Assembly (NCBI GenBank): GCA_021296215.1
Contig: JAGWBA010000017.1
Location: 1 to 35,482, forward strand
Origin: Flavobacteriales bacterium
GTDB lineage: Bacteria > Bacteroidota > Bacteroidia > Flavobacteriales > ECT2AJA-044
Length of the DNA stretch: 35,482 nucleotides
Direction of reading: 5' to 3'
This document shows positions 1-32,061 of this stretch, piece by piece; position 1 is the stretch's first letter; each line of letters opens with the position of its first letter. The translations under genes and the position numbers were made by a program. A model generated the notes under the pieces. It saw nothing but the letters and a program-made list of their open reading frames with translations, did no database searches and had not been told where the DNA came from.

Positions 1-23
1 TCAGTAAACTTTGACTTCTTCAT
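1..23 (-). CDS. IS3-family transposase OrfA, first seven codons only
   Basis: The ATG at 23-21 opens a minus-strand frame reading M-K-K-S-K-F-T before the window ends. Many IS3-family OrfA proteins (helix-turn-helix subunits of the DDE transposase) begin MKKS(K/R)FTE. The next codon starts with GA, so Glu or Asp follows. The call rests on seven residues plus the inverted-repeat-like sequence just upstream, so it is tentative. If right, OrfB would lie beyond the left edge. Confidence 0.4.
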
Positions 24-78
24 AATCAACAATTTAAAATTATACTTTTAAACTGTCTCGTTTTTGGGGAAGTTTACC
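1..78 (-). mobile_element. End of an IS3-family insertion sequence, cut by the window edge
   Basis: Read on the minus strand, positions 78 to about 51 give GGTAAACTTCCCCAAAAACG followed by AGACAGTTT. This resembles the terminal inverted repeats of IS3-family elements, which commonly contain a CCCCAAAAA block followed by GACAGTTT. About 28 bases further on, an ATG opens a frame reading MKKSKFT, which matches the usual start of IS3-family OrfA proteins. Two independent signals in the right order and spacing support the call. The exact outer end is uncertain because the expected terminal TG is not clear. The element would extend left of position 1. Confidence 0.5.
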
Positions 79-130
79 TTTCATTGGTTGGAATAAGAAA
101 GATAACAGTTAATGGAATTGAAAGATAGAT

Positions 131-457
131 GCCAATCTCCGGGCCCCGGGTTTTAACCCGAGGTTGTGCAGTTGAATCATTAATGATGAAAAGAAATAGC
201 ACACGGATGCAATACAGCCCCGGGCTGAAGCCCGGGGATCAATGCGTTCAATATTTAACGACAATCCCTAATGAAAAAAAGACCCCCGGCCCCGGGTTAA
301 AACCCGGGATCGTGCAGTTGAATCATTAATGCTTAATAAGCAATAGCACACGGATGCAATACAGCCCCGGGCTGAAGCCCGGGGATCAATGCGTTGAATT
401 TTTGAAGGCAATCTCCTAATAGAAGCAAGACCTTTGGCCCCAGGCTTCAGCCCGGGG
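131..457. repeat. Tandem array of REP-like GC-rich palindromes
   Basis: Five palindromes of 18-20 bases lie in a row: 144-163 (one mismatch), 218-237 (perfect arms, loop GA), 291-308 (perfect arms, loop AA), 365-384 (perfect, identical to 218-237) and 438-457 (one mismatch, opposite orientation, loop TC). They sit in a unit of about 146 bases holding one CCCGGGTT-type and one CCCCGGGCT-type palindrome. Flanks repeat too: GTGCAGTTGAATCATTAATG occurs at about 312-331 and, with one change, at 166-185; GCACACGGATGCAATACAGC occurs at 199-218 and 345-364. The arrangement resembles bacterial interspersed mosaic elements built from REP sequences. In other bacteria such palindromes are spread by RAYT transposases; none is visible here. 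Confidence 0.85.
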
Positions 458-484
458 TTAAATATATCAAGCTAGAGAGAAGAA

Positions 485-655: not shown

Positions 656-664
656 ATTTTGTTG

Positions 665-737
<73 letters not shown>

Positions 738-31229: not shown

Positions 31230-31993
31230 AGCTCATCTCTTTCAACGTGAACGGCATCCGTGCCAGTGTCAAGAAAGGATTGTTGGAAACCCTGCAAGAA
31301 CTCGACGCCGATGTGGTGTGCTTTCAGGAAACCAAGGCAACGCCCGAGCAGGTTGGCGAGGCCTTGACCGGATTGGAAGGCTATCATTTGTACGCTAATT
31401 CGGCAGACCGAAAAGGGTACTCAGGTACGGCGATCATTTCCAAGGAGAAGCCCTTGAACGTGAGCATGGATATGGGCATTGAGGAGCACGATACTGAGGG
31501 GCGCGTGATCACTGCGGAGTACGAAGATTTTTACCTGGTGACGGCCTATGTGCCGAATTCGGGAAATGGATTGAAGCGACTCGATTATCGCGGGCAATGG
31601 GACGTGGATATGGCCGCGTTTTTGGCGGATCTGCAGAGTAAGAAGCCCGTCGTCTTTTGCGGCGACTTGAATGTGGCCCATCAGGAGATCGACATCGCGC
31701 GACCAAAGTCAAATTACAACAAAACGGCTGGGTATACCCAACAGGAGATCGATGGGATGGATCGCTTTCTCAATGAAACGGGCATGGCCGACAGCTGGCG
31801 GGCACAGCATCCCGACGAAGTAAAGTACAGCTGGTGGAGTTTTCGTGCCGGTGCACGTGAGAAGAACATCGGTTGGCGGCTCGATTATTTTCTGGTCTCA
31901 GCACCGTTGATGGAAAAAGTGTCTGATACCTTCATTCTAAATGACGTGCACGGGTCGGATCATTGTCCGGTTGGGGTAGTTCTTAGGTCTTAG
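31226..31993 (+). CDS. xth: Exodeoxyribonuclease III
   Basis: This is an ExoIII-type AP endonuclease, which nicks DNA at abasic sites during base excision repair and trims 3' ends. The 255 residues match the family. Active-site motifs are MKLISFNVNGIRA (metal-binding Asn), VVCFQETKA (catalytic Glu34), VTAYVPNSG, CGDLNVAHQEIDIARPKSN, WRLDYFLVS and GSDHCPVGVVL with the general-base histidine. It is translationally coupled to the hydrolase before it by a four-base ATGA overlap. Confidence 0.96.
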   Translation: MKLISFNVNGIRASVKKGLLETLQELDADVVCFQETKATPEQVGEALTGLEGYHLYANSADRKGYSGTAIISKEKPLNVSMDMGIEEHDTEGRVITAEYEDFYLVTAYVPNSGNGLKRLDYRGQWDVDMAAFLADLQSKKPVVFCGDLNVAHQEIDIARPKSNYNKTAGYTQQEIDGMDRFLNETGMADSWRAQHPDEVKYSWWSFRAGAREKNIGWRLDYFLVSAPLMEKVSDTFILNDVHGSDHCPVGVVLRS

Positions 31994-32061
31994 CTTTAGC
32001 AAAGTTCAATTTTCCGTGAATAAGCTAACGCTAAGGCTAATAGCTATTTAAAAATACCTGA

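Follow-up and report, generated by a model that had tools for sequence, protein, structure and literature searches.

A tandem array of REP-type palindromes, part of a dispersed hairpin family, in a Flavobacteriales genome with no detected Y1 transposase gene

Near the left end of contig JAGWBA010000017.1 of a Flavobacteriales bacterium (GenBank assembly GCA_021296215.1) lies a tandem array of short, GC-rich palindromes, at positions 131 to 457 of the 35,482-nucleotide stretch that we analysed (positions 1 to 35,482 of the forward strand, hereafter the window). In some bacteria such hairpins adjoin genes for a single-strand-cutting transposase. The main question then is whether this array belongs to a family of repetitive extragenic palindromes (REPs) spread by an enzyme of the kind of the REP-associated tyrosine transposases (RAYTs). 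If so, where is the enzyme? The account that we favour, with a confidence only somewhat better than even, is an orphan REP family of RAYT-like kind, which owes its spread to a Y1 transposase now lost or unassembled and its growth to tandem duplication.

Five 20-base palindromes, located by reading the sequence, by a repeat finder and in an aligned listing, follow each other with start-to-start spacings of 74, 72, 75 and 73 bases. Their left flanks are of two types in the aligned listing, A (..CCTTGG) and B (..GGATGCAACACAG), which alternate along the array. The preliminary description of this DNA, which had proposed a tandem array with two alternating kinds of palindrome, was thus right about the array, and also about its unit of about 146 bases with conserved flanks (146-147 bases by the repeat finder, units sharing 92% of bases across 76 nt and 85% across 52 nt) and about two identical palindromes, the copies at 218 and 365. 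It erred in calling the last palindrome inverted: the A-type left flank of this copy (..AAGACCTTTGG) has the same direction as those of the other copies, so that the palindrome opens a third unit, and the flip is confined to the loop (CTTCAG for CTGAAG, in a core of the CT..AG kind). The features of the array are as follows.

138..169, plus strand: palindrome 1 (144-163) and 6 nt on each side; left flank of type A, T.A core, one pair mismatched
212..243, plus strand: palindrome 2 (218-237) and its flanks; left flank of type B, C.G core, stem of 8 bp without mismatch, loop of 4 nt; DNA fold -10.8 kcal/mol, z -4.4
284..315, plus strand: palindrome 3 (290-309) and its flanks; left flank of type A, T.A core, flipped loop in comparison with palindrome 1
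359..390, plus strand: palindrome 4 (365-384) and its flanks; left flank of type B, same sequence as palindrome 2
432..463, plus strand: palindrome 5 (438-457) and its flanks; left flank of type A, oriented like the others, C.G core with its loop flipped; opens a third unit, which is truncated
139..284, plus strand: repeat unit 1 (A palindrome, spacer, B palindrome, spacer); repeat finder families D2 and D3, spacing 146-147
285..431, plus strand: repeat unit 2; identity to unit 1 of 85-92% in the compared stretches

The array is therefore built of modules of about 73 bases, each with a GC-rich hairpin (8-bp stem, 4-nt loop), and a diverged A and B module together form the 146-base dimer, repeated head-to-tail. 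Orientation was judged from the flanks because the palindromes themselves are nearly symmetric. A CRISPR (clustered regularly interspaced short palindromic repeats) or integron attC array is ruled out by the spacers, which recur from one unit to the next (no search was made for cas or integrase genes), and so is a known structured RNA, as Rfam at its gathering score matches tRNA alone in the window.

Is the palindrome confined to this locus? The assembly comprises 2,528,500 bases in 135 contigs and is 97.35% complete. With up to three mismatches, CCCCGGGCTGAAGCCCGGGG has 13 forward and 12 reverse matches in it, most of them the same places on both strands, against 0 and 0 for the backwards pattern, so the palindrome is not a product of chance. 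A covariance model of 27 copies (R1) places the family at 33 or more non-overlapping sites at E<=0.01, in 15 loci (the 27 model rows and 6 new ones), a number that is a lower bound since 150 of 498 candidates were scored. The five window copies, which are among the rows that built the model, score E 8.3e-9 to 1.5e-6 in a search of the window. Below the cut, and omitted from the 33, are C65:658 (E 0.014, inside a trpG-looking open reading frame, ORF), C50:7621 (E 0.014), C5:56592 (E 0.07, cut by the contig end) and C3:45086 (E 0.08). BLAST with the array as query gives 9 places, one of them the array itself; the best of the rest are on C22 (82%), C21 (78%, 100 bases) and C66 (72%), and one of the places is a 46-base stretch on C56, 91% identical. 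No ORF longer than 114 aa overlaps any of the 15 loci. In the general sense of a short, GC-rich, extragenic and dispersed palindrome, this is a REP element. Several left flanks share one module (..GGTTAATGGGATTTAATAATGGA..TCCTTGG), and the organised mosaic element that had been proposed is borne out by these shared modules and by a genome-wide count in which palindrome and flanks are dispersed well beyond the window.

Core and flank go together, although not strictly. Among the 27 aligned copies, 17 have A flanks (T.A core in 13, C.G in 3, other in 1) and 10 have B flanks (C.G in 8, T.A in 1, other in 1), the flank type of one copy, L026:2751, having been assigned from its wider context. Loop flips independent of the flanks occur at other copies too (TTTTAA/TTAAAA). 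Such flips and the core swaps might come from strand exchange or gene conversion between the near-symmetric hairpin arms. Stem positions are paired in 86% of the cells of the aligned copies; in 7 of 26 rows one stem position fails to pair. The innermost pair is altered on both sides, from U-A to C-G, in 10 of the 26 distinct rows. The covariation score and the number of both-sides cells lie above all 500 shuffles and slid versions; the number of pairs with a both-sides change (268/500 shuffles as high) and of further pair types (486/500) shows no excess over shuffles. Most of the covariation comes from a single pair, the one in which A and B differ. When folded as single-stranded DNA, the two perfect copies in the window outdo shuffled sequences by a wide margin (z -4.4), and the other three are unremarkable (z -0.2, -1.7 and -1.1).

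Evidence on a possible enzyme comes from other genomes. A wider search gave 32 palindrome stretches from 23 genomes, counted by titles. Fifteen of these genomes, from Bacteroidota, Chlorobi and one Chitinispirillia, were taken to a search for Y1_Tnp; the remaining 8, for the most part GC-rich members of other phyla, were left out, and the matches in Pseudomonas, Streptomyces, Belnapia, Acidimicrobiia and others have the look of chance matches in GC-rich DNA. All 15 genomes carry Y1_Tnp (59 matches). Overall, a Y1 gene is present in 20 of 22 other palindrome-bearing genomes, compared with 259 of the 395 genomes of our class sample. Palindromes with 1-3 changes from those of the window directly flank a Y1 gene at three loci: L123, from a Chlorobiales metagenome-assembled genome (MAG), where CT..AG and TT..AA cores alternate, L125, from a Tangfeifania MAG, and L129, from a Lac Pavin Bacteroidetes MAG. 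Dyadobacter genomes have rich palindrome arrays (L079, L087, L090), of which L079 also alternates two palindrome kinds, at spacings of 98/81/98/83/98/73. Palindrome matches were also seen in 9 stretches of viral contigs.

To which Y1 enzymes do these genes belong? The proteins at L123, L125 and L129 carry the Y motif Y---Q--HH, the stated signature of TnpA-Y1 subclass 1.2 (PMC6006769). In NCBIfam all three score above the IS200/IS605 cut-off; the REP-associated model scores L125 and L129 below its cut-off and gives no match to L123. An alignment of 22 sequences shows the HUH histidines conserved except in L123 (1492-1941), where the first His is replaced by Tyr, unlike the other 21.

Hairpins near Y1 genes were counted by criteria set in this analysis (stem >=7, loop 2-8, stem GC >=60%). 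In a first pass over 58 loci (2 of 60, L137 and L138, matched no ORF and were dropped), which include 28 loci from genomes chosen for their palindromes, 35 had a hairpin within 500 bp, with 77 hairpins near, 18 in the next 500 bp and 3.9 expected from shuffles; the centre was YTNNAR in 37 of the 77. An unbiased set was formed by the 41 Y---Q--HH loci from our order and class samples, not chosen for palindromes, these being the best-scoring loci, at most one per genome, and not a random draw. Here a hairpin lies within 500 bp at 16 of 41 loci and in the next 500 bp at 1 of 41 (39 hairpins versus 1). Because the near zone is richer in non-coding DNA, the counts were split by ORFs of at least 100 aa: non-coding DNA has 27 hairpins in 16.6 kb near the gene versus 4 in 11.8 kb further out (1.6 versus 0.3 per kb), and ORFs have 14 in 22.9 kb versus 5 in 60.6 kb. 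The hairpin excess near Y---Q--HH Y1 genes stands after this split. The 26 palindrome-chosen loci of the 1.2 type, counted apart, give 21 near and 8 far. IS200-like (1.1-like) genes also have near hairpins, at 7 of 12 loci, so near hairpins alone are not specific to subclass 1.2. We found no description of palindromes tied to this subclass in the literature searched, though one may exist.

How might the family have spread? The modules would have been copied or moved by a Y1 transposase that recognised the hairpin in single-stranded DNA, as TnpA_REP and TnpA_IS200 do, and the array would then have been enlarged locally by tandem duplication of the dimer; identity within it is 85-92%, versus 72-82% to the best other arrays. 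The transposase gene was presumably lost, or is unassembled, which would leave the family an orphan in this genome. A wider and decidedly more tentative proposal is that subclass 1.2 of Bacteroidota and Chlorobi runs a second RAYT-like system, in which many genes have cognate near-perfect palindromes at their sides, frequently with a YTNNAR centre, without a GTAG tag and in head-to-tail two-module mosaics; the window array would then be an orphan colony left after loss of the transposase.

Several observations weigh against a RAYT-like origin, or against its wider form. Y1_Tnp (PF01797) has no match in this genome, and a search at E<=10 with the alignment of 22 sequences likewise gave none, though it lacked its own positive control; the PF01797 profile matched in 44 of 148 genomes of the order sample. 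None of those 44 also carries the palindrome, which with at most one mismatch is found in 3 of the 148, namely the genome under study, G032 (1 place) and G129 (a different core, 3 places), and these two weaker palindrome-bearing relatives are without Y1_Tnp as well. In the class sample the exact palindrome occurs in 6 of 395 genomes including this one, and all five others (G180, G255, G286, G303 and G309) carry Y1_Tnp, which is weak support because Y1 genes are common in the class (0.66^5 = 0.12). Arrays were seen at L123, L125 and L129 only among 30 Y1 loci viewed from the 15 genomes (L128 has one copy and L120 a shifted variant), and none of 13 viewed Y1 loci from seven Dyadobacter genomes has the palindrome with the CCCCGGG stem, so the pairing of enzyme and palindrome is not seen in that genus. 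The YTNNAR centre is present in only 11 of the 39 hairpins of the unbiased loci. No GTAG/GT[AG]G or CGTC tag lies in the six bases left of the 27 aligned hairpins. The flanks keep one orientation per array, and the alternating or inverted order of REPs in bacterial interspersed mosaic elements (BIMEs) and REP doublets (REPINs) was not found; BIMEs alternate in orientation (PMC2817692), whereas the window array is head-to-tail by its flanks. Finally, there is no empty-site or target-site evidence: the alignment to the congener G001 ends at window position 618 and therefore gives no precise empty site.

According to the preliminary description, the family was probably moved by a RAYT-type transposase encoded at another place in the genome. 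The searches gave no gene of this kind, but the proposal retains an analogy in the palindromes that flank Y1 genes at the three loci above. It would have been abandoned had the palindromes been confined to this locus with no RAYT gene in the genome; the gene was indeed not found, but the palindromes are dispersed. A RAYT system proper (REPtron), whose Y1/HUH gene would sit between copies of its own palindromes in one genome, was not observed, and we withhold that name because no gene was detected, the tag is absent and the order is head-to-tail. For a RAYT the support is partial; the array is best seen as a non-autonomous repeat of REP type which, by analogy, would work like a RAYT-mobilised REP family.

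Could the cognate gene simply be unassembled, in an ordinary and possibly active REP/transposase system? The 135 contigs, the completeness of 97.35% and the arrays on C17, C5, C52 and C113, all within about 200 bases of a contig end, leave room for this, as does the frequency of Y1 genes in other palindrome-bearing genomes. However, the two profile searches found no fragment, many copies are imperfect, as the unpaired stem positions attest, and G032 and G129 are also without the gene; we regard this explanation as unlikely.

We give still less credence to hairpins kept for a function in RNA or DNA (mRNA 3'-end protection, attenuation or protein binding sites), with transposition irrelevant. 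The position of all 15 loci outside ORFs above 114 aa and the strong folding of perfect copies would suit it, and such roles are reported for classical REPs (PMC6006769). Against it, shuffles fold as well as three of the five window copies, the hairpins are not followed by a T-run (by eye from the sequence; no terminator scan was made), the palindrome is rare in the order sample, and the congener G001 gives only two rows with the covariance model, E 0.62 and 0.73, neither convincing (150 of 384 candidates scored). G001 has no Y1_Tnp by PF01797 or by the 22-sequence alignment.

It is also quite improbable that the modules spread by local duplication, gene conversion and rearrangement mediated by insertion sequences (IS), with no hairpin-specific transposase, an explanation that draws on the failure to find a Y1 gene and on an IS3-family transposase ORF (L028:1802-2611) ending 88 bp from the C21 array, but which sits poorly with single dispersed palindromes that have conserved left flanks, with the clustering of hairpins at Y1 genes and with related palindromes adjoining Y1 genes in three genomes.

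Some neighbouring features deserve mention. The contig ends beside the C52 and C113 arrays (right ends of L232 and L030) appear to have a similar IS-like end, and the left end of the window (1-130) reads MKKSKFT on the minus strand, which may resemble the start of an IS3 OrfA. A second left flank is shared by four single palindromes, of which three are on C28 and one on C18 (about GAGTAAATCGGCGCT..GCGCCGGGA): L228:2250-2281, L228:3452-3483, L229:2488-2519 and L231:2575-2606. The palindrome at L228:3452 comes after two small ORFs, presumably resembling a HigBA toxin-antitoxin pair. In G129, three copies of a different GC palindrome, CCCCGGGCTCGCGCCCGGGG, were seen (L035, L036 and L037). Another motif, AACACTAAGACCTAAGAACT, occurs with up to three mismatches at 40 places in this genome, one of them at 31978-31997 on the minus strand of the window, compared with 1 place in the congener; the backwards control gives 1 in either genome. 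In 30 loci read the motif is often at the edges of intergenic spacers, sometimes in inverted pairs, and it follows several palindrome arrays. The next annotated gene right of the window array is tRNA-Gly (gcc) at 664..737 on the minus strand, and a 19-base inverted repeat, 95% complementary (541-559 / 647-665), lies between the two. In G001 the region beyond mutS and tRNA-Gly holds tRNA-Leu.

The family of the window is itself of modest interest; what merits attention is the wider link between palindromes and subclass 1.2, which suggests candidate DNA substrates for a Y1 transposase subclass of unknown role. The array adds a case of untagged hairpins in ordered mosaics that seem to outlive their enzyme.

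Among known systems, the nearest is that of REPs and BIMEs with their RAYT (TnpA_REP) in E. coli, Pseudomonas and Haemophilus influenzae. Alike are the short, GC-rich, intergenic palindromes clustered with conserved spacers, and, in three other genomes, the related palindromes next to Y1 genes; the GGGCTTCAGCCC core of the window palindromes also occurs in the H. influenzae REP (PMC2817692). Unlike it, the window family has no 5' GTAG/GTGG tag and no Y1 gene in its genome, and it is far smaller, with about 33 places where classical REPs usually have a hundred or more copies. Tandem dimers are reported to be absent or rare in most GTAG families (PMC3733652). TnpA-Y1 subclass 2.6 (RAYT group 5) is found in Bacteroidetes, with flanking atypical hairpins that have copies elsewhere in the genome (PMC6006769), and the window family resembles it in both host and dispersed hairpins; its Y motif is YIH[QN]NP, versus Y---Q--HH at the comparable arrays. 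As for subclass 1.2, the genome studied here is without such a gene, and hairpins lie at the gene in 16 of the 41 unbiased loci, but the Y1 genes beside comparable arrays, from Bacteroidota and Chlorobi, carry its motif (Y---Q--HH, PMC6006769).
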